Assembly (NCBI GenBank): GCA_944349635.1
Contig: CALVNH010000001.1
Span: 462,385-526,384, forward strand
Length of the DNA stretch: 64,000 nt
Direction: 5' to 3'
DNA from: an uncultured Clostridia bacterium
GTDB lineage: Bacteria > Bacillota > Clostridia > Christensenellales > CAG-917
The position numbers were made by a program, and so were the translations under genes. The notes beneath the pieces were generated by a model. It searched no databases. It worked only from the letters and a program-made list of their open reading frames with translations, and was not told where the DNA came from. Shown piece after piece: positions 38,730 through 51,619 of the stretch; positions within the stretch are counted from its first letter, which is position 1; each line of letters opens with the position of its first letter.

Positions 38730-39170
38730 TTATTGACGTGCGGCGGCGTTTTCCGCAAGCCAGGTCAAGGCCTCGGCATATCCGTCGAACCCTTTTCCGC
38801 ATATCACTTTCTGCGCGTAAAGCGACACGAAACTGAACTTTCGGAAGTCTTCGCGGGCGTTGATGTCCGAAAGATGAACTTCCGCCGTGGGCAGTCCCAC
38901 GGCTTTCAGTGCGTCCAGCACGGCAACGGACGTGTGGGTGTAGGCGGCGGCGTTTATCACGATTCCGTCGTATCTGCCGTATGCCTGCTGTATGGCGGTC
39001 ACGATTTCGCCCTCGCCGTTGAACTGTACGCAATCGACTTCAACGGACAGCGCGGCGGCGGATTCTTTCACGAAGTTCACCAAATCCGCATAAGTTTTTC
39101 TTCCGTAAATTGCGGGCTCTCTTATGCCCAGCATATTTAGGTTGGGACCGTTGATTACAAGTATTTTCAT
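38730..39170 (-). CDS. aroQ: 3-dehydroquinate dehydratase, type II
   Basis: Encodes 146 residues. The start INGPNLNMLGIREPAIYG with its catalytic Tyr and Arg, the Asn in INAAAYTHTSVA, the catalytic His in VHLSDINARE and the Arg/Phe residues that follow are all diagnostic. It removes water from dehydroquinate to give dehydroshikimate. ATG 39170 overlaps the aroE-aroK stop by four bases. It is the last gene of the eight-gene operon. Confidence 0.96.
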   Translation of the reverse strand: MKILVINGPNLNMLGIREPAIYGRKTYADLVNFVKESAAALSVEVDCVQFNGEGEIVTAIQQAYGRYDGIVINAAAYTHTSVAVLDALKAVGLPTAEVHLSDINAREDFRKFSFVSLYAQKVICGKGFDGYAEALTWLAENAAARQ

Positions 39171-41577: not shown

Positions 41578-42687
41578 TTATGTTAGGTGCGCCACGGCGC
41601 CGTTATTTTCCGTTTTCAGCATTTCGTCCAGTATGACCAGCGCAACCGCGCTTTCCACCGCCGCCACGGCTCTCGGCACAAAGCATACGTCGTGTCTGCC
41701 GTGTACGGTGATTTCCGTCTCCGTCATCGTGTCGAGGTCAACCGTGCGTTGAGGAAGCGACACGGAAGGGGTGGGACGAAACGCCACCCTCATCGTGACG
41801 GGCATTCCGTTGGTGATGCCGCCGTTGATTCCGCCCGCGTTGTTGGTGGAAGTCGCCACCTTGCCGTTCCGTATGACAAACGGGTCGTTGGCGCGGCTTC
41901 CCGTCATCGACGATATGGAAAAACCCGCGCCGAATTCCACGCCTTTGGCACCGGGAATGCCGAAGAGCATGGCGGACAGTTTGCTTTCCAGTCCTTCCGT
42001 CATGGCGTCGCCGAGTCCTACGGGAAGTCCCGTCACCACGCACTCCACGATTCCGCCCGCGCTGTCGCCCCGGCGGGCTGTTTCCGAAAGAACTTTTTCC
42101 GCCTCTTCCGCTCCCGAGAGCATAGGCAAAGCAGCGTCGTGCGCAAGGGCGATTTCGTCGGCGGAGGGCACGTTCCCGTCGAGATAGCTTTTGCCTTTAA
42201 CGCCCGCGAGTTCGCCGATGTAGGCACCCACGTTCACGCCTTTTTGCGCAAGCAACTGAACGGCGATTCCTCCCGCGACGACAAGCGGCGCCGTCATTCT
42301 GCCCGAGAATCTGCCTCCGCCCGAGGCGGCGGCGTTGTCGCCGTCCTTCACCGCGGAAACGTAGTCCGCGTGAGAAGGGCGGGGGGTACGGGCGTAGCCG
42401 TAGTCGGCTTTCCTTACGTTGGTATTGTTTATATGCGCTTTTACGGAACTGTCGAGGAGAAGTTTTCCGTTGTCCGATTCCGTCACGCCGAAATCCCACA
42501 CGGCGGCGTCGTCCTCGCGACGCGGAGTCGAAAACAGATATTTTCCGCTTTTCCTGCGCTCCGTAAAACGGCGCAACTCTTCCGCGTCCACGGTTGCGCC
42601 GTGCGGCAGTCCGCTCAGCACCATTCCGATTTCTTCGGAGTGCGATTGTCCGTAAACGGAAAGATTCAGCACGTCAAATATTTTCAT
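41578..42687 (-). CDS. aroC: Chorismate synthase
   Basis: Encodes 369 residues. The family segments are GQSHSEEIGMVLSGLPHG, RPSHADY, AASGGGRFSGRMTA, the flavin-binding GGINGGITNGMPV, and near the end TVHGRHDVCFVPRAVAAVESAVALVILD. It forms chorismate from EPSP using reduced FMN. Its start overlaps the aroA stop by four bases. Confidence 0.96.
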   Translation of the reverse strand: MKIFDVLNLSVYGQSHSEEIGMVLSGLPHGATVDAEELRRFTERRKSGKYLFSTPRREDDAAVWDFGVTESDNGKLLLDSSVKAHINNTNVRKADYGYARTPRPSHADYVSAVKDGDNAAASGGGRFSGRMTAPLVVAGGIAVQLLAQKGVNVGAYIGELAGVKGKSYLDGNVPSADEIALAHDAALPMLSGAEEAEKVLSETARRGDSAGGIVECVVTGLPVGLGDAMTEGLESKLSAMLFGIPGAKGVEFGAGFSISSMTGSRANDPFVIRNGKVATSTNNAGGINGGITNGMPVTMRVAFRPTPSVSLPQRTVDLDTMTETEITVHGRHDVCFVPRAVAAVESAVALVILDEMLKTENNGAVAHLT

Positions 42688-43925
42688 ACGGTTTCACCTC
42701 CGAGGGCTTTCAAATCTTCGAAGAAGCGGGGATAGGATTTGGCGACGGGGGCTCCGTCGTCGATTTCTCCTCCGCATACCAGAGCGGCGACGCTTGCAGA
42801 CATCACCATTCTGTGGTCGTTGTATCCTTTTGCGGAAAACGGTTTTAAGGTGCCGCCGTGGATTGTCAGCGTATCGCCGTCCGTCTCGGAGCGAATTCCC
42901 ATTGCGGCAAGGTTTTCCGTCACGGCGGACAGTCTGTCGCTTTCCTTCTGGCGCAGTCTGCTCACCCCGGTCATGACCGATGTGCCTTTTGCCGCTGCCA
43001 TTGCAACCGACAGTACGGGAGCGAGGTCGGGCGTGTCGGTGACGTCCGTAACGACGGCGTACAGCGCGCTTTTGCGAGCCCGCACCGAATTGCCGACGAT
43101 TTCAATGTCGCCTCCCATGGCTTTGAGTATGTCCGCGACGAGGCGGTCTTTTTGCGACGATTCGGGATTCAGTCCCGTCACCGTCACGTCACCCGCCAAC
43201 ACTCCCGCCACAAGCATGAATGCGGCGTTGGACCAGTCGCCCTCCACCTCCGTTTTCTCGGAAGGAGGAGTCAGAACGCAGGGCTCCGAAACATAGCCGT
43301 CCGGGAGGGCGGAGATTTTCGCTCCGAAAGAGGACAGCACGTCGAGAGTCATATCGATGTATCCGCGCGACACGGCATCGCCTTTTACGACAAGACGGGT
43401 GCGGCGAGGCAGCGCGCTCATGGCGAACAGCATTCCGCTTATGTATTGCGAACTCACGTTGCCCGCTGTTTCAAAGACATCCCCCGTCAGTTTTCCCGTT
43501 GCCGAGAAGGGCAGTCCGTCTGCGGAAAAGGATATTCCCGCGGATTTCAGACAATCGGTCAGTTCGCCGAGAGGGCGTTGCGGCAATCGTCCTTTACCTT
43601 CGAAACGTGCGTTGGCACCCAGCGCGCAGGCGACGGGCAACATAAAACGCAGGGTTGAGCCGCTTTCGCCGCAGTCCAGCACGGGAGAGTCGGAAACTTT
43701 TTTTATCGGACGGACGGCAAATCCCGTTGCGGTGCGCGAGATGTCCGCGCCCAACGCGTTCAGGCATCTGACCGTGGCGTCTATGTCGTCGGAGGAAGCC
43801 CTGCAAAGGACGTTGCACCCCGCGTCCGACAACGCGGCGGCAATGAGTATGCGGTGCGCATACGATTTCGACGGTACGGCGGGTATCGTGCCGTTTATTT
43901 TGCAAGGACGGATTATTACACTCAT
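42684..43925 (-). CDS. aroA: 3-phosphoshikimate 1-carboxyvinyltransferase (EPSP synthase)
   Basis: Encodes 413 residues. Seen are the N-terminal VPSKSYAHRILIAAALSD, the CGESGSTLRFMLPVA motif with LGANARFEGKGRLPQRPLGEL, the central QYISGMLFA, and RQKESDRLSAVTENLAAMG with YNDHRMVMSASVAAL. The TLRFMLP segment, rather than the usual TARLM-type loop, is the one relevant to glyphosate sensitivity; I cannot assign a class with confidence. ATG 43925 overlaps the aroB stop; the frame upstream of it is not conserved. Confidence 0.96.
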   Translation of the reverse strand: MSVIIRPCKINGTIPAVPSKSYAHRILIAAALSDAGCNVLCRASSDDIDATVRCLNALGADISRTATGFAVRPIKKVSDSPVLDCGESGSTLRFMLPVACALGANARFEGKGRLPQRPLGELTDCLKSAGISFSADGLPFSATGKLTGDVFETAGNVSSQYISGMLFAMSALPRRTRLVVKGDAVSRGYIDMTLDVLSSFGAKISALPDGYVSEPCVLTPPSEKTEVEGDWSNAAFMLVAGVLAGDVTVTGLNPESSQKDRLVADILKAMGGDIEIVGNSVRARKSALYAVVTDVTDTPDLAPVLSVAMAAAKGTSVMTGVSRLRQKESDRLSAVTENLAAMGIRSETDGDTLTIHGGTLKPFSAKGYNDHRMVMSASVAALVCGGEIDDGAPVAKSYPRFFEDLKALGGETV

Positions 43926-44950
43926 AGCACGAAGTTCTCCAACTCGTCCAGCGTCATTTCCTTGATGAAGCAGTCGCCTATACCCCTTACTAGAACGGTT
44001 TTCAGCGTGCCTTCCGTCAATTTTTTGTCGTGTGCAAGTCTGGGCAGCACGGAGCGTACGGAATATGGGCATTCGGGGAAGCCGTATTTTTGCAACACGG
44101 CTGTGATTCGTTTGTAGTCTGCGGCGGGGAGAATGCCGTGCGTCACGCACGCGCGTGCGATGACGTAAATTCCCATCGCCACGCATACACCGTGTGGAAA
44201 GCCCAACGCGCTCTCCGTTTCGATTGCGTGTCCGACGGTATGTCCGAGATTGAGCAGACGCCTGTCGCCTTTTTCGTTTTCGTCGCGTTCCACCACTGCA
44301 CGCTTGTAATCCACACACGAGAAAATCAGCCTTTCCAGGTTTTCTTCTGCCACCCCTTTTTCAAGGATGTCGAAGATTTCGCCGCCCGCCAACACACCGT
44401 ATTTGACGGCCTCGCCCAGTCCGCACTTCCATTCGGTTTTCGGAAGAGTGCTCAGTGTGTCGGTGTCGAAAACCACGGCGCGCGGCGCATATATTCTGCC
44501 CGCCATATTCTTTCCCGCGGGCAGGTCGACGGCGGTTTTTCCGCCGACGGAGGAATCTATCGCGGCAAGGAGCGTGGTGGGTACCTGAACGTAGTCTATA
44601 CCGCGCATATAGACGGAGGCGACAAATCCGGCAAGGTCGCCCACTACGCCGCCGCCCAACGCCACAACGACATCGCTGCGGCTCATTTTTTCGTCTGCCA
44701 GCCATTCCAGCAGTTCACCCGCAAGCGCCCAGTTCTTGCTGGCCTCGCCGTGCGGAACCGTTTTTGAACAGGCGTTGTCGGGCAGTCCGGACAACACCTT
44801 TTCAAGGTATAACGGGGCGACGTTGTCGTCGGTAATCACGGCGACTTTGCACCCTGTGGGACAATCGAAGAATTCGGGCAATCTTCCCAACAGATTCTTG
44901 CCCGTAACAACGGGATATTCGTGAGAAGCTGCTTTGACTGTGATTTGCAT
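43922..44950 (-). CDS. aroB: 3-dehydroquinate synthase
   Basis: Encodes 342 residues. Signatures are PHGEASKNW, ALGGGVVGDLAGFVASVYMRGIDY-type NAD site, VPTTLLAAIDSSVGGKTAVDLPAGKN with substrate-binding residues, a zinc His in NLGHTVGHAIE and GFPHGVCVAMG. It cyclises DAHP to dehydroquinate. ATG 44950 has GGAGG directly upstream; a longer frame was rejected. It begins 51 bases after the tyrA stop, the largest gap in the operon. Confidence 0.96.
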   Translation of the reverse strand: MQITVKAASHEYPVVTGKNLLGRLPEFFDCPTGCKVAVITDDNVAPLYLEKVLSGLPDNACSKTVPHGEASKNWALAGELLEWLADEKMSRSDVVVALGGGVVGDLAGFVASVYMRGIDYVQVPTTLLAAIDSSVGGKTAVDLPAGKNMAGRIYAPRAVVFDTDTLSTLPKTEWKCGLGEAVKYGVLAGGEIFDILEKGVAEENLERLIFSCVDYKRAVVERDENEKGDRRLLNLGHTVGHAIETESALGFPHGVCVAMGIYVIARACVTHGILPAADYKRITAVLQKYGFPECPYSVRSVLPRLAHDKKLTEGTLKTVLVRGIGDCFIKEMTLDELENFVL

Positions 44951-45877: not shown

Positions 45878-46890
45878 AAATCCCTCTCTTTACCCACTAC
45901 GGGCAACATCACGTCAATGCGTTTGACCAAATCGTCGAACTGTTCGGGACGCAGAGATTGCGCACCGTCGCACAGGGCGTGAACGGGGTCGTTGTGCACC
46001 TCGATTTCCAGTCCGTCGGCACCTGCTCCGACAGACGCGAGAGAGAGCGGCAGAACCAGCCTTGAAAGTCCCGAAGCGTGACTCGGGTCCACGATGATGG
46101 GAAGGTGCGTGAGCTCTTTGAGCACGGGAATGGCGGAGAGGTCGAGCGTGTTGCGCGTGTAGGGTTCGAAGGTTCTTATTCCGCGTTCGCAGAGAATGAC
46201 ATCGGTGTTTCCTTCGGACATAATGTATTCCGCGCTCATCAGCCATTCCTCTATGGTTGCCGCCATACCGCGTTTGAGCAGAACGGGTTTGTGAGTTTTT
46301 CCCAATTCTTTCAGCAACTCGAAGTTCTGCATATTACGCGCGCCGACCTGGATAATGTCAATCTCCTCGAAGAGCGGGAGATGTTTGATATCCATGATTT
46401 CCGTGATGACGGGCATACCGGTTTCGTGTTTGGCGGTGATGAGGATTTTCAGACCCTCTTCCCGCAATCCCTGGAAAGCGTAAGGCGACGTTCTCGGCTT
46501 GAAAGCGCCGCCGCGCAGGACGGTTGCACCCGCTTTTTTGACGGCGCGGGCAACCGCCACCACCTGGTCTTCGCTTTCGACGGAGCACGGCCCCGCAATG
46601 AGCTGAAAGTGTTTGCCGCCGAAGAGGTGTCCGTTCACGTCGACGATTGTGTCCTCGGGGTGGAACTTGCGGTTTGCGTTTTTGTACGGCTCCTGAATGC
46701 GTTTGACCGATTCGACTATGTCGAGCGAGCGGATGAGGTCCTCGTCCACGACGGACGTGTCGCCGATGAGCCCCATGATGGTGGTGTTGTCGCCCTTGCT
46801 CATGTGGATGTCGAGCCCCAGCCCCTTTATCCATTTGACAAGGTTGTCCATTTGTTTTTTGTCGGGATTGTTCTTTACTACTATTATCAT
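45874..46890 (-). CDS. aroF: DAHP synthase with N-terminal ferredoxin-like domain (type I-beta)
   Basis: Encodes 338 residues. Residues 1-70 are the ferredoxin-like regulatory domain (MIIVVKNNPDKKQ). The barrel has AGPCSVESEDQV, RGGAFKPRTSPYAFQG, the metal Cys in GPCS, KRGMAATIEEWL, CERGIRTFEPYTRNTLD and the His in DPSHASG. It condenses PEP and erythrose 4-phosphate, the first step of the pathway. It is the first structural gene, about 65 bases past the leader terminator, so its expression depends on read-through. Confidence 0.96.
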   Translation of the reverse strand: MIIVVKNNPDKKQMDNLVKWIKGLGLDIHMSKGDNTTIMGLIGDTSVVDEDLIRSLDIVESVKRIQEPYKNANRKFHPEDTIVDVNGHLFGGKHFQLIAGPCSVESEDQVVAVARAVKKAGATVLRGGAFKPRTSPYAFQGLREEGLKILITAKHETGMPVITEIMDIKHLPLFEEIDIIQVGARNMQNFELLKELGKTHKPVLLKRGMAATIEEWLMSAEYIMSEGNTDVILCERGIRTFEPYTRNTLDLSAIPVLKELTHLPIIVDPSHASGLSRLVLPLSLASVGAGADGLEIEVHNDPVHALCDGAQSLRPEQFDDLVKRIDVMLPVVGKERDL

Positions 46891-46954
46891 AACTTACCTT
46901 TATGCGCTTTCGCGCGGCTTCCGTCCGGTAAAGGAAGCGGAAGAGTATCGACAT

Positions 46955-47052
46955 AAAAAAGACCGCCATATTCGGTATGGCGGTCTTTAATCACATATTG
47001 AAGAGAAGTTTATCCGCGCATACCGAAACAGGGGCTTTCAAAGTAAAAGCCC
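46955..47052 (-). promoter_or_regulatory. Transcription attenuator of the aro operon
   Basis: Three mutually exclusive hairpins fit, read on the minus strand. A pause hairpin (47052-47046 with 47038-47032) lies inside the leader peptide codons. The segment 47027-47014, which covers the last codons, is complementary to 46983-46971, allowing an antiterminator. The terminator uses 46988-46976 and 46970-46958 around a five-base loop, then a T run. Stalling on Phe/Tyr codons would free the antiterminator segment; finishing the peptide would cover it and let the terminator form. Confidence 0.85.
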
Positions 47053-47093
47053 TTAAAATAGAAGTATGCATAAGATGCGTTGAAGTTTTTCAT
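47010..47093 (-). CDS. Phe/Tyr-rich leader peptide of the aro operon
   Basis: A 27-codon frame from ATG 47093 to TAA 47010. Phe is at positions 4, 11, 13, 16, 18 and 23 and Tyr at 8, 10, 12 and 17; there is no Trp. The run from Tyr8 to Phe18 contains eight aromatic codons out of eleven. A GAGGT ribosome-binding site is at 47102-47098. The frame is followed within 22 bases by a terminator hairpin and then by aroF. It is comparable in logic to the enterobacterial pheA leader but reads both Phe and Tyr, matching the operon's two products. Confidence 0.85.
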   Translation of the reverse strand: MKNFNASYAYFYFKGFYFESPCFGMRG

Positions 47094-47110
47094 AACTACC
47101 TCTCGTCAAC

Positions 47111-47139
47111 AATATAAAACCACTTTCGCCGTATGTCAA
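47111..47139 (-). promoter_or_regulatory. Promoter of the aro operon
   Basis: Minus-strand TTGACA (47139-47134), 17 bases, TATATT (47116-47111). Transcription would begin near 47104, only a few bases before the leader ribosome-binding site. The T-rich stretch at 47140-47159 on the same side may also end the hydrogenase gene transcript. Confidence 0.8.
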
Positions 47140-47197
47140 CTTTTTTTTGTTTTTTAAGGAAAAAAGGGCAGACGACGTAGGAATGCCGCCTTGTGCG

Positions 47198-48661
47198 TCA
47201 GGCTTTGTCGGAGGAGGGGAGATTGAGCACGCTGATTGCGTCGCCGATGCTCTTTTCGAGTGCCTCTCTTCCGTAGGCGTCCACTTCCGTCTTGTTCTTT
47301 TCTCCGTGCGTCAGGCAACCTGCTCCGCCGATGCAGCCGTTGACGCACGCCATTCCTTCTATGAAATTGTTGGGCAGAACGCCCTTCGCCGCTTTCGCCA
47401 GAGCGATGCGGCACGCTTCTATGCCGTCGCAGGCGACGGGGTTGAACTCGAAGCCCTGTGTGTTCTGTTCTTTCAGAGCCTGCGCCACGGCGTCGGTGAG
47501 ACCTCCGCTCCTCGCAAAAATTCTGCCGTAATAAGAGGCGTTGTCAAGCACTCCCTCGCGCAGATGTTCGATGTCGACTCCCTTTGCGTCGAACAGCGCC
47601 TGCAACTCCTCGAAAGTGATGACAGAGTCTATGTAGGGACGGACTTCGGGACGCTGAAACTCCATTTTTTTTGCGGTGCACGGTCCGATGAAAACCACTT
47701 TGCAGGGCGCGGACGTGCTCTTGATGTATTTTGCTATCGTGGCCGCGGGTGAAAGGTTCGTGGAGATATGCTGTTCCAGCTCCGGGTATTGCTTCCTGAT
47801 GTAGTCGACGAAGGCAGGACAACAGGAACTTGTGAGGAACCCTTTTTCAACCAGCTCTTCCGCCTCCTTGTACGCCACCATATCCGCACCCAGCGCCGCT
47901 TCGACCACGTTGAAGAATCCCAACTCTTTGATTGCGGTGACGACCTGTCCCAGTTTTGCGTAGGTGAACTGGCTGGCGATGGAGGGAGCAACGACGGCGT
48001 ACATCTTGTACGCGCGGTTGCCGTCGCTCTTCTTTATCATGTCTATTACATCGAGAATGAAAGATTTGTCTATCATTGCGCCGAATGGACACTGATACAC
48101 GCAGGCGCCGCAGGCGATGCACTTTTCGTTGTTGATGCTTGCCGCTTTGTTTTCGTTGACGGAAATAGCCTTGACCTTGCAGGAATTTTCGCAGGGACGG
48201 CGGCGGGAAACTATTGCGCTGTAGGGGCAAACCTTTGCGCATTGACCGCATTCCACGCACAACGATTTGTCGATGTGCGCCTTTTGCTGATGGTCGAAAG
48301 TGATGGCGTTGCGTTTGCAGACGTCCTCGCACCTGTGAGCAAGACATCCGCGGCAGGCGTTGGTCACTTCGTAGCCTCCGGCAGGGCAGTCGTCGCACGC
48401 AATCTCGATTACTTCTATGACGTTGGGATTGGAGCGGTTTCCGCCCATGGCGAGTTTGACTCTCTCCGCTATGATGGCGCGCTCCTTGTAGACGCAGCAA
48501 CGCATGGTCGGAGTGTTGCCGGGTATGATGGTCTTGGGAATGTCCGTGACCTTTTCCAGCAAAGTGTCGTTGAAAGCGTTCCTTGCCACTTCGCGCAGAA
48601 CCTTGTATTGGAGATACTGAACCTTGGTGTCGAATTTTCGCAGTGTCTTTTTGTCGTTCAT
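47198..48661 (-). CDS. [FeFe]-hydrogenase catalytic subunit, group B-like
   Basis: Encodes 487 residues. A Cys-rich N-terminal block (Cys89 to Cys115) precedes two 4Fe-4S motifs: Cys135, 138, 141, 145 and Cys181, 184, 187, 191. The H-cluster domain has TSSCCPAF (Cys280/281), IGPCTAKKMEF (Cys328) and MACVNGCIGGAGC (Cys439, Cys443), so all cluster ligands are kept. This fits the monomeric group B enzymes of anaerobic Clostridia, which make H2 from reduced ferredoxin. Maturation genes hydEFG are not in the window. It lies downstream of the sensor hydrogenase and phosphatase. Confidence 0.9.
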   Translation of the reverse strand: MNDKKTLRKFDTKVQYLQYKVLREVARNAFNDTLLEKVTDIPKTIIPGNTPTMRCCVYKERAIIAERVKLAMGGNRSNPNVIEVIEIACDDCPAGGYEVTNACRGCLAHRCEDVCKRNAITFDHQQKAHIDKSLCVECGQCAKVCPYSAIVSRRRPCENSCKVKAISVNENKAASINNEKCIACGACVYQCPFGAMIDKSFILDVIDMIKKSDGNRAYKMYAVVAPSIASQFTYAKLGQVVTAIKELGFFNVVEAALGADMVAYKEAEELVEKGFLTSSCCPAFVDYIRKQYPELEQHISTNLSPAATIAKYIKSTSAPCKVVFIGPCTAKKMEFQRPEVRPYIDSVITFEELQALFDAKGVDIEHLREGVLDNASYYGRIFARSGGLTDAVAQALKEQNTQGFEFNPVACDGIEACRIALAKAAKGVLPNNFIEGMACVNGCIGGAGCLTHGEKNKTEVDAYGREALEKSIGDAISVLNLPSSDKA

Positions 48662-48740
48662 TTCAATATCCGATGTTGATAATTATATTTTGTCGCGTTA
48701 ACCGTATGTTTTGCGTTTTGCTCTCGCAAAGATGTTTTGG

Positions 48741-49901
48741 TCAGTCGTAGTTGAGTTCCACGACCTTTCCCATGAGTTTGAGGTTGTTGGAGATGCTTTC
48801 CACCAGTTTCAGTTTCATGGTGATGTCAATGGGCAAGCCCTGGTGAGCGGCGTTTATGCTCTGTCCCACGAAGAAAGTGACGTGTGTCGCGTCCTCGAAC
48901 AGCATATTTGCAAGCAGTGAAGCCCCGTCCTTTTTGTTGGAGCGTTTGGGAGTCAAATCGGAGTTGGACAGATAGATTTCGCTGAGTTCCAGCAACTTGC
49001 GCAAAGTCAGCACGCCCTCCGTCGTCAAGTCTATGCCGTTTATGTAACCTATCGGAGGAACGTCCTTGTCCGGAAATTCGAACGACGCGTTCACCTTTTC
49101 TCCGAGGTATCTCGCCACCACTTGCGAACTGGTGCCGCCGCAGACAATCTTTTTTCCTTCTCCCGAAAGAAAGCGTTCGACGTAGAAATCGTCCTTGTCC
49201 TTCTCGACCGGCGGACCCACCATAATGCGCACGGGATATTTTTCACGCACACGCAAGACGGCCACCGTGGTGTCGTCACCCGGTTTTCCGAGATACAAGT
49301 CGTTGCAGGCGCCCGCCAGCATGCACGCAACGCCCCTTGCGGACATACCCGGTTTAAGGTTGCGGTCCAGATGTTCCATGACGTCCTTGCGCAGCCAGCC
49401 GAAGTTGAGCAGCATTCCTATGCCCGCGTGTATGACGCCGTCGCTCATCAGCACGATGTAGTCCTCCGCACGCAGTCGCAGCCTGGTCCCGTAAACCTTT
49501 TTGCCGAGAATGTTGTATTCCTTTCTGTCGAAATCGGTGCATTTGCCGTTGCGAATGAGTATGGCTTCCGGATTGTCGAATTCGAACAGATAACCTTCGC
49601 CCTGTTCGTTGATGTGTATGACGGAGAACGTGGCGTATGCGACCTGGCGCACTTTGCACACGGGCAAAGTCTGCACAACGGTTGACACGCATTCCTCCAT
49701 GTCGATGTTGTTGGACACCATCGTACAAAGGATTTTGGACGTGAGCGTGGCGAGAATGTTGGCTTTGACGCCGCTGCCCAAGCCGTCCGCGAGAACGAGG
49801 GTGGTGTAGCCGTTGCAGTTTATTTGTTCGACCTTGTCACCGCAGAGTTCTTCGCCCTTTTTGTTCAACGAGGTATATCCGCTTTCCAGAAAAAGTTCCA
49901 T
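48741..49901 (-). CDS. SpoIIE-type PP2C serine phosphatase linked to the hydrogenases
   Basis: Encodes 386 residues. The N-terminal 220 residues are a PPM/SpoIIE phosphatase: metal Asp in VLADGLGSGVKAN, Asp in LMSDGVIHAG and GDDTTVAVL. The remaining 165 residues form a second domain of unknown role (SGEGKKIVCGGTSSQVVARYLG). There is no membrane region, unlike true SpoIIE. Its ATG overlaps the sensor hydrogenase stop by one base. Known group C3 sensory hydrogenases are paired with such phosphatases, so it is probably the output of that sensor rather than a sporulation protein. Confidence 0.88.
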   Translation of the reverse strand: MELFLESGYTSLNKKGEELCGDKVEQINCNGYTTLVLADGLGSGVKANILATLTSKILCTMVSNNIDMEECVSTVVQTLPVCKVRQVAYATFSVIHINEQGEGYLFEFDNPEAILIRNGKCTDFDRKEYNILGKKVYGTRLRLRAEDYIVLMSDGVIHAGIGMLLNFGWLRKDVMEHLDRNLKPGMSARGVACMLAGACNDLYLGKPGDDTTVAVLRVREKYPVRIMVGPPVEKDKDDFYVERFLSGEGKKIVCGGTSSQVVARYLGEKVNASFEFPDKDVPPIGYINGIDLTTEGVLTLRKLLELSEIYLSNSDLTPKRSNKKDGASLLANMLFEDATHVTFFVGQSINAAHQGLPIDITMKLKLVESISNNLKLMGKVVELNYD

Positions 49902-51619
49902 CAGTCGTCCTCTTCCGAAGAACGGGGTTGCAAGGTCTCTTTGAGTTTGAGCAAGGCGACCTTTGTTTCCGCCGTCGTTTCGCCGAGCAGGGAAGCGATT
50001 TCCTGCGCGACGCGCATTTGCTTTTTGATGACTTCGTCCGTCGTTGCCAGCGTTTCCATCTTGACCGCGTTCAGCTTTTCGTCGTATTCGACGTTGTCGG
50101 TGATGTCCTTCATCACGCCGAACATCACGTTATGTTCCTGCAATATGACGATGGAAAGTTCTATGTATTTTTTTGTGCGGTTGACGAAAACGCGCTTTTT
50201 GCTGACATTGGCACCTTTTCCCGCCGCCGCGATGAACTCGTCGCAGTCGAAGCAGTCAAAAGCGTTCATGCCGTGTACGTCGTGTTCCGTGACCCCGAGC
50301 AGACGCATTGCCTTCGCGTTGATGTCGATGATGCGGAAGTCGTTGTCCAGCAACACGATTCCGTTGGGCGTGTTCTGAATGATTTCGTAACTCATCGATT
50401 CCGCGCGGCTTCTCATATACGGCAGGCACATTTCGATGTCGGCGTAACCGTTGAGAACGGCAATCGCCTTGTCGCGGCAGGTGGAGTAGCCGCAAGCGCC
50501 ACAGTTGAGCTCGTCCGCGGGCGAGGTCTTGCCGGTTTTGGCAAGTACGGCACGAATGTCCTTTTCGCTGGGAATGAAATCGTCCAGTTTTATTCTGGGG
50601 TGGAGTTCTGTGAGGTCCACTTCCACGGGTTCCGCCGCTTGACCGTCGGCCGGAGTGTCGGCGTCCTTTGCGGCGTATTTGCGTACGTCCTCGTTGGATT
50701 TAAGCGCGCCGCCCTGTTTTTTGAGCGTGCAGGGTCCGCCCACGCAGGCGTGGTCGCAACAGTTGAGTTCGAGGAAAAGCCCGTTCAGAGAGTCGATGTC
50801 TTCCAGCACTTCGAAACAGCGGTTGACGCCGTCTATGGCAACGTATTCGTATCCCTCGGGACGCGTCTCGAAAGATTTGATTATGCCGTGACTTATGGGA
50901 TAATAACGGGCGCGGTTGGCGTCGCCCTGTGCGGTTTTGAAGGAGTTGATTTGCTCCAAATCGATGTTTTCCTGAACAAAAAGACGGTTCAACTCCTCGA
51001 AAGTGAGCACTCCGTCGATTATTCCGCTTTCTTTCGCCTCGCGCTTCTTGGCGATGCAAGGACCTATGAAAACAATCTTCGCGTCGGGATAACGCTTTTT
51101 GAGCATGCGCGCGTGAGCAATCATCGGGGACGCCACGGGAGCCAGATATTTCAGAGCTTTGGGGTAGTATATCTGAATCATGCGGTTCACCGCGGGGCAG
51201 GCGGAAGTGATGAAGTTTTTATACTCGCCCGTACGCAACAGCTTTTCGTATTCTTCAGTTACCGCCTTTGCGCCTACAGCGGTTTCTTCCACCATGTCGA
51301 AACCTAGTTTTCCCAGTGCAATCTGCATTACTCCGAAATCCTGCACGGAAAAGCAGGATACGAACGACGGGGCAAGACTTGCGATGACTTTGTCGTTGCC
51401 GGCAAGCAACGCCAGAATGTCGTCGGTTTCGCTGTGCACCTGCTTTGCGTTCTGCGGACAGACGTGAGTGCATTTGCCGCAGAGAATGCACCTCTGTTCG
51501 ATGATTTTTGCCTGGTGGTTTTCGTAGCGTATTGCCTTGACGGGGCATTCGCGCAGGCACTTGAAGCAGTCTTTGCATTGCGCGTTCTTGAAATCCAGAT
51601 ATGGCGCCGAATTATGCAT
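49901..51619 (-). CDS. Sensory [FeFe]-hydrogenase-like protein with PAS domain (HydS type)
   Basis: Encodes 572 residues. Two 4Fe-4S motifs (Cys15, 18, 21, 25 and Cys44, 47, 50, 54) precede a shortened H-cluster domain with TSACP (Cys141), IGPCIAKKRE (Cys188) and a divergent third motif ELNCCDHACVGGPC (Cys287-297). A further Fe-S motif follows (Cys373, 376, 381, 398), then a PAS domain at about 410-510 and a helical tail. This layout matches group C sensory hydrogenases, which are proposed to sense H2 or redox state. ATG 51619 follows GGAGA; the longer frame is unsupported. Confidence 0.88.
   Translation of the reverse strand: MHNSAPYLDFKNAQCKDCFKCLRECPVKAIRYENHQAKIIEQRCILCGKCTHVCPQNAKQVHSETDDILALLAGNDKVIASLAPSFVSCFSVQDFGVMQIALGKLGFDMVEETAVGAKAVTEEYEKLLRTGEYKNFITSACPAVNRMIQIYYPKALKYLAPVASPMIAHARMLKKRYPDAKIVFIGPCIAKKREAKESGIIDGVLTFEELNRLFVQENIDLEQINSFKTAQGDANRARYYPISHGIIKSFETRPEGYEYVAIDGVNRCFEVLEDIDSLNGLFLELNCCDHACVGGPCTLKKQGGALKSNEDVRKYAAKDADTPADGQAAEPVEVDLTELHPRIKLDDFIPSEKDIRAVLAKTGKTSPADELNCGACGYSTCRDKAIAVLNGYADIEMCLPYMRSRAESMSYEIIQNTPNGIVLLDNDFRIIDINAKAMRLLGVTEHDVHGMNAFDCFDCDEFIAAAGKGANVSKKRVFVNRTKKYIELSIVILQEHNVMFGVMKDITDNVEYDEKLNAVKMETLATTDEVIKKQMRVAQEIASLLGETTAETKVALLKLKETLQPRSSEEDD

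Follow-up and report, generated by a model that had tools for sequence, protein, structure and literature searches.

How does a bacterium of the class Clostridia adjust an operon that leads from DAHP synthase to both phenylalanine and tyrosine? In Firmicutes, the control of aromatic genes is usually assigned to T-boxes and proteins. Here, we analyzed a stretch of 64,000 nucleotides (hereafter the window) from an uncultured Clostridia bacterium, whose genome (G000) comprises 1.35 Mb and is 89% complete. The window carries a same-strand gene run down to position 38730 with the operon order aroF-tyrA-aroB-aroA-aroC-pheA-aroEK-aroQ:

46890–45874, minus strand: aroF, DAHP synthase, first gene of the operon (Pfam DAHP_synth_1, DAHP_snth_FXD)
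45877–45002, minus strand: tyrA-type prephenate dehydrogenase (PDH_N, PDH_C)
44983–43922, minus strand: aroB, 3-dehydroquinate synthase (DHQ_synthase)
43928–42684, minus strand, start approximate: aroA, EPSP synthase (EPSP_synthase, searched as 42684–44000)
42687–41578, minus strand: aroC, chorismate synthase (Chorismate_synt)
41562–40417, minus strand: pheA, chorismate mutase / prephenate dehydratase (CM_2, PDT)
40420–39167, minus strand: aroE-aroK fusion, shikimate dehydrogenase and shikimate kinase in one protein (Shikimate_dh_N, SKI)
39170–38730, minus strand: aroQ, type II dehydroquinase (DHquinase_II)

The Pfam matches cover all enzymes from DAHP synthase to prephenate dehydratase and prephenate dehydrogenase, which confirms the full aromatic operon named in a preliminary description of this DNA. 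Based on sequence analysis and folding models, this aro-phe-tyr operon is very probably controlled by a ribosome-mediated transcription attenuator sensing charged tRNA-Phe and tRNA-Tyr.

The gene preceding the operon, which is hydrogenase-like and lies on the same strand, ends at 47198. It belongs to a region (47198–51616, minus strand) in which two Fe_hyd_lg_C (iron-only hydrogenase-like) proteins, one of them with a PAS domain, flank a SpoIIE-type phosphatase; in sequence, this region looks like a sensing hydrogenase module. Between this gene and aroF, the following elements were located:

47191–47170: terminator-like hairpin of its own, preceding the promoter
47139–47111, minus strand: promoter (TTGACA at 47139–47134, 17-nt spacer, TATATT at 47116–47111; 11/12 consensus matches)
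Upstream of the leader ORF, minus strand: GAGAGG, possible ribosome binding site
47093–47010, minus strand: leader peptide ORF, 27 codons plus TAA (translation MKNFNASYAYFYFKGFYFESPCFGMRG, then stop)
47070–47064, minus strand: strand 1, UGCAUAC within the Tyr8-Ala9-Tyr10 codons, with its partner GUAUGCG at 47023–47017
47052–47032, minus strand: pause-type hairpin (GGGCUUU at 47052–47046 with AAAGCCC at 47038–47032), enclosed by the 1:2 pairing
47027–47014, minus strand: strand 2, the 5' strand of the antiterminator, formed by the last peptide codons, with C47018 bulged
47012–47010, minus strand: leader stop codon
46988–46955, minus strand: intrinsic terminator, 13-bp stem (46988–46976/46970–46958) and a U run to 46955
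46983–46971, minus strand: strand 3, the 3' strand of the antiterminator, doubling as terminator 5' arm and loop

Read directly from the sequence, the 27-codon frame contains six Phe and four Tyr codons (10/27) and no Trp codon, as had been described, and both the consensus promoter before it and the terminator separating it from aroF were likewise borne out. Transcription probably starts near 47104, as placed from the promoter, at a distance of about 150 nt from the U run. The region 46950–47110 folds with −55.3 kcal/mol (z −6.9), a stability reached by 0/200 dinucleotide shuffles. Strands 2 and 3 form an antiterminator of 9+4 bp with a duplex energy of −21.6 kcal/mol, better than 200/200 dinucleotide shuffles of the leader. 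The pause hairpin, antiterminator and terminator proposed earlier as three alternative pairings are all present; this list, however, omitted the pairing of strand 1 (47070–47064) with strand 2 (47023–47017). Strand 1 overlaps the control codons, and its pairing with strand 2 is by energy alone only moderately better than in shuffled leaders (23/200 as good). The 1:2 pairing, which makes the predicted switch three-way, is part of the minimum-energy fold and holds strand 2 when strand 1 is free of ribosomes.

The attenuators of the E. coli pheA and trp operons combine a leader peptide rich in the end product with four RNA strands, which pair as 1:2, 2:3 or 3:4, and a stalled ribosome results in read-through. 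The window leader shares the end-product-rich peptide and the scheme of pairings with these systems, but here one leader precedes the whole operon from DAHP to Phe and Tyr, and Phe and Tyr codons are mixed. In a comparison with the Rfam family Phe_leader (RF01859), the window leader scored 21.3 bits (E 0.28), which is below the gathering cut-off of 55. In the proposed mechanism, a ribosome would translate the 27-codon peptide as RNA polymerase moves along the leader. With plentiful Phe-tRNA and Tyr-tRNA, the ribosome would reach the stop codon at 47012–47010 and cover strand 2, allowing the terminator (3:4) to form and to end transcription near 46955. If Phe- or Tyr-tRNA is scarce, the ribosome would stall on the Phe/Tyr run, leaving strand 1 unpaired, and the 2:3 pairing would allow read-through into the operon. 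Finally, in the least certain step, an untranslated leader may keep strand 2 in the 1:2 pairing, which would favour termination. Our computations cover the frame and how it is conserved, the alternative stems, the compensatory changes that two of these stems show in a sister genus, and the switch in the folding model; translation, stalling, actual termination and a response of the leader to Phe and Tyr are what we infer.

Is the short frame a coding sequence? Compared with the window over the first 20 codons, the leaders of its own genus differ at 32, 21 and 57 of 166 sites each at codon positions 1, 2 and 3, respectively, and 32/42 changed Phe/Tyr codons still specify Phe or Tyr. This third-position bias together with the retention of Phe and Tyr indicates a coding frame. 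In addition, the alignment of own-genus leaders (A2) shows in-frame gaps of three bases, and the Phe/Tyr run persists in peptides from outside the genus, although these have little sequence in common. Trp codons are absent from all 32 family leaders analyzed and occur 2 times in 53 leaders of other relatives and 9 times in 41 leaders at class level. In the own genus, trpD was detected in 0/10 genomes (two of them below 90% completeness), and TrpB gave no match above cut-off, with a weaker TrpB-like match in 8/10 genomes. The absence of Trp codons therefore fits a pathway ending at Phe and Tyr.

The leader recurs far beyond the window. Within the family, a Phe/Tyr-rich leader was found before aroF in 33/39 regions, compared with 49/4000 random stretches, which makes chance untenable. 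Lack of conservation of the frame among relatives had been named beforehand as an argument against the attenuator, and the third-position bias, the codon retention and this recurrence all show the opposite. The 39 regions derive from 38/43 genomes (G020 contributes two) and include six without a scored leader, namely L013 (contig end), L115 (containing N, with a frame that still looks leader-like), L019, L111, L116 and L117. In four family genomes with aroF (G006, G007, G008 and G024), no leader was detected. Among the nearest relatives in named records, 65/80 regions carry the leader; five of these 80 loci (L032, L033, L035, L039 and L040) duplicate family contigs, judged from their length and position. 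At class level, aroF was found in 148/196 genomes, and 43/87 regions (better matches only) have a Phe/Tyr-rich leader. These 87 include two intergenic regions read on both strands (4/87), and some genomes contribute two regions; L177, L179, L181 and L200 were dropped since the aroF start was not located. Some of the 43 frames look like chance, for example L195, L219 and L230, which are without a terminator. Within the same order, genome G225 has the leader (L173), and the divergent aroF pairs of G105 and G173 show it in neither copy.

A terminator follows the leader in 33/33 cases in the family, 58/65 in the other relatives and 36/41 distinct cases at class level. The seven relatives' leaders without a terminator by the rule of our script were excluded from the pairing tests, and after removal of six duplicates 32 family leaders and 53 others remained. 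Carriers include the isolates Angelakisella massiliensis and Oscillibacter valericigenes. A search of a plasmid collection with the leader DNA gave no match, and a scan of the whole G000 genome for runs of five Phe/Tyr codons gave 22 matches, fewer than the 32 of the reversed control. In one family genome, two diverging copies of aroF each have a Phe/Tyr leader of their own (G020:C5:1–3583; L012 and L119). Phe/Tyr leaders before aroF were also seen on contigs labelled Lentisphaerae, Oligosphaeraceae and Thermoguttaceae (L072, L076, L078 and L097), which may be explained by transfer or by binning error. Among these, L072 and L097 have an antiterminator within the best 5% of shuffles; that of L076 ranks lower, and L078 is without a terminator by the script.

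Beyond the window leader, we looked at the alternative stems in the relatives by energy and by covariation. The antiterminator ranked within the best 5% of shuffles in 29/32 family, 37/53 other and 24/36 class-level leaders. In the isolates, 4/200 shuffles were as good for A. massiliensis and 66/200 for O. valericigenes, whose antiterminator is thus no better than shuffles. This test uses the terminator arm plus loop, because strand 3 extends into the loop; with the arm alone, which clips strand 3, the antiterminator is in the best 5% in only 6/32 family leaders and 8/53 others. The 1:2 pairing reaches the best 5% by energy in only 12/32 family leaders and 18/52 others (L090 was left out of this test).

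Among own-genus leaders, strands 2 and 3 of the RNA are highly conserved and most stem pairs are invariant; this alignment therefore says little about compensation. We turned to an alignment (A4, excluding three divergent short forms of alignment A3) of 15 leaders of the short form from one sister genus, which have the topology of the window leader in other sequences. Here, the 1:2 stems are paired in 94% of cells with changes on both sides in 5/12 pairs (reached by 0/500 shuffles; slid versions up to 4), and the terminator in 93% with such changes in 4/8 pairs (13/500 shuffles; slid up to 1). The equivalent of the pause hairpin is paired in 100% of cells, and 3/6 pairs changed on both sides. 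The antiterminator, which is mutually exclusive with the terminator, is paired in 90.3% of cells (0/500 shuffles) with a covariation score reached by 4/500, but its changes on both sides (2/14 pairs) do not exceed those of the controls (143/500 shuffles; slid up to 4). Sliding the partners by 1–3 columns lowered pairing to at most 64%. The compensatory changes anticipated for the stems were thus recovered for the 1:2 stems and the terminator of this sister genus, but not for the antiterminator. Beyond the genus, leader sequences diverge too far for covariance models.

Does the predicted RNA switch in the expected direction? In an occlusion model, the folded RNA began 13 nt downstream of the A-site codon's first base and ended with the terminator. 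For the window leader, the modelled probability of the terminator is 1.00 both for the free RNA and for a ribosome at the stop codon, and 0.19 averaged over the densest Phe/Tyr stretch. By codon, it is near zero at codons 12–16, with stalling at codons 11–16 fully effective, intermediate at codons 6–10 and 17, and again 1 at codon 18 and beyond. This switch was matched by 0/200 shuffled leaders. In the folding model, stalling and completion thus have opposite outcomes for the window leader, with the last peptide codons forming the antiterminator strand, just as the preliminary description had predicted. In the family, 13/32 leaders show a difference between stop and stall above 0.3, compared with 2/384 shuffles (full-length model), and the other 19/32 stay below this mark. 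The family means are 0.53 stalled, 0.85 at the stop and 0.78 free, and the effect is reversed in none relative to the stop and in one relative to the free RNA. Outside the family, the effect is weak (means of 0.85 stalled, 0.96 at the stop and 0.96 free), with 8/53 leaders passing the 0.3 mark.

When the transcript was cut before strand 4, the family mean for the antiterminator was 0.74 stalled versus 0.45 at the stop, and 14/32 leaders differed by more than 0.3. The untranslated RNA reached 0.68 in this setting, hardly below the stalled value, so that termination by default in the absence of translation is not supported by the cut-transcript model. For the untranslated state, the cut-transcript and full-length models thus disagree.

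As a further feature, many family leaders have a start codon at or close to the predicted transcription start. The pattern TTGACA-17/18-TATA[TG]T occurs in all 10 own-genus leaders, and all 32 family leaders have a −35 element that departs from TTGACA by at most one base, together with a −10 element of at least four matches; a promoter as good (five and four matches) was found in 52/640 shuffles. In 17/32 family leaders (15 from one sister genus and 2 from another: L012, L014–L018, L020–L024, L028, L029, L113, L114, L118 and L119), the start codon lies 6–8 nt after the −10 element. Because the start codon is located where transcription should begin, no Shine-Dalgarno sequence is possible upstream and the prediction for these leaders is a leaderless mRNA. 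If the −10 element were read two bases earlier, this prediction would alter little. In the genus of the window, the gap between −10 element and start codon is 13–17 nt, predicting a very short 5' untranslated region, and the other relatives have a median gap of 31 with a fair promoter in 48/53. A comparable 5' end is described for the attenuator RNA rnTrpL of Sinorhizobium meliloti, which begins at the AUG of the leader peptide peTrpL, as predicted here for the sister genera; this system differs in belonging to the Alphaproteobacteria and in concerning Trp (PMC7298713).

Several other explanations for the leader were weighed. One assigns the terminator to the hydrogenase-like gene before the operon and regards the Phe/Tyr frame as a chance product. 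The position of this gene directly upstream on the same strand would agree with this, but it has the separate hairpin at 47191–47170 behind it, followed by the 11/12 promoter, and the frame recurs in the family far above the random stretches; we give this explanation practically no credence. Control by a T-box, in which uncharged tRNA-Phe or tRNA-Tyr would bind the leader RNA directly, might be expected since such genes are commonly T-box controlled in Firmicutes, and a T-box is indeed present elsewhere in most own-genus genomes. For the Bacillus cereus group, T-box control of tyrosine genes is reported (PMC2494555). However, the T-box family RF00230 was unmatched in the window, in 46850–47200 up to an E of 5 and, with stricter filters, in G000. 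The leader is also short compared with the 219-position T-box model, and the own-genus T-box adjoins a TrpB-like gene in 8/8 genomes with one. A T-box at this leader is therefore extremely improbable.

More credit, though still little, is due to a riboswitch-like or protein-bound leader that senses an aromatic metabolite, either as RNA alone or with a repressor, the frame being incidental or a translation booster. The high conservation of strands 2 and 3 in the own genus is what an aptamer might show, and a motif before the aroFBC-tyrA operon of Enterococcus faecium has been termed a riboswitch (PMC4448216). Nevertheless, the RNA sequence differs strongly between groups while the Phe/Tyr codons persist, the codon-position bias and Phe/Tyr retention point to a coding frame, and the leaders of the window and of 17 related loci gave no Rfam match above cut-off. 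Metabolite sensing of this kind is thus improbable, and ribosome-mediated attenuation remains the reading that we favour.

How does the predicted attenuator relate to other controls in the lineage? T-box matches were obtained in 21/43 family genomes (5 above cut-off, none in G000), and their presence elsewhere in own-genus genomes indicates that T-box and leader-peptide control coexist. The T-box adjoins the TrpB-like gene at G027:C8:65538–67385 and at matching places in seven other own-genus genomes; considering also the 0/10 result for trpD, the own genus perhaps makes tryptophan from indole only. At 17 hisG loci, a search of about 1.5 kb for a His leader was negative, as all short ORFs had at most 3 His in 8 codons. 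In G000, the first gene of the his operon encodes a 93-residue protein of the Trp_repressor family (L151:131–412, plus strand), similar to HisR, for which a Trp_repressor-family gene heading the his operon is described (PMC9413887). Separately, an FMN riboswitch was observed near aroF in a sister-genus genome (L017, 3813–3942, minus strand).

Attenuators of this type are already in print for Firmicutes. Experimental support is reported for ribosome-mediated transcription attenuation by Listeria Rli60 (PMC5864092) and at the Staphylococcus aureus ilv-leu operon (PMC5794164), which are of the same type but concern branched-chain amino acids in Bacilli. His leader peptides were described for hisS/hisZ paralogues in bacilli by Naville and Gautheret in 2010, who stated that, apart from ermC, they knew of no demonstrated case beyond the Proteobacteria and Actinobacteria (PMC2965389). 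Candidate His attenuators were also proposed for his operons of the B. cereus group, Eubacteriales and Erysipelotrichales (PMC9413887). Both sets of Firmicutes His leaders resemble the window leader in combining a peptide with a terminator and antiterminator, but differ in the His codons and the genes concerned. The closest published counterpart in the literature searched is the uORFC-13-1 motif, represented by 24 sequences, in which a uORF with one or more Phe codons is predicted before Acholeplasma aroF (PMC8632094). As in the window, a terminator stem directly follows the uORF before aroF, and attenuation with a further base-paired substructure was proposed; unlike here, the motif comes only from Acholeplasma and environmental sequences of unknown organism, and the section describing it names neither Tyr codons nor Clostridia (PMC8632094). 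The novelty for the lineage asserted in the preliminary description was thus too strong in view of these leader-peptide attenuators and the Acholeplasma uORF. What stands is that a Phe/Tyr attenuator at aroF in Clostridia is unreported in the literature searched, which covered few subscription journals; Lopatovskaya 2010 and Panina 2003 may hold related predictions.

New in our analysis are the breadth of the leader in Clostridia and the 17/32 family leaders predicted to be leaderless. Taken together, we consider it rather likely that Phe/Tyr leader attenuation commonly controls DAHP synthase, the enzyme at the entry to aromatic biosynthesis, in the class Clostridia (with copies on the contigs labelled Lentisphaerae, Oligosphaeraceae and Thermoguttaceae) and is probably old, that it coexists with T-boxes in the same genomes, and that sister-genus leader peptides are made from leaderless mRNA beginning with the A of the start codon or a nucleotide adjacent to it. 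The collection comprises 126 distinct natural leaders (85 with a terminator and 41 more, none identical between the sets), some of them predicted leaderless, and could be used to study the influence of strand layout and start context on attenuation. Since isolates carrying the leader exist, attenuation is testable. If our reading is true, many gut bacteria would couple DAHP synthase to the translation of its end products.
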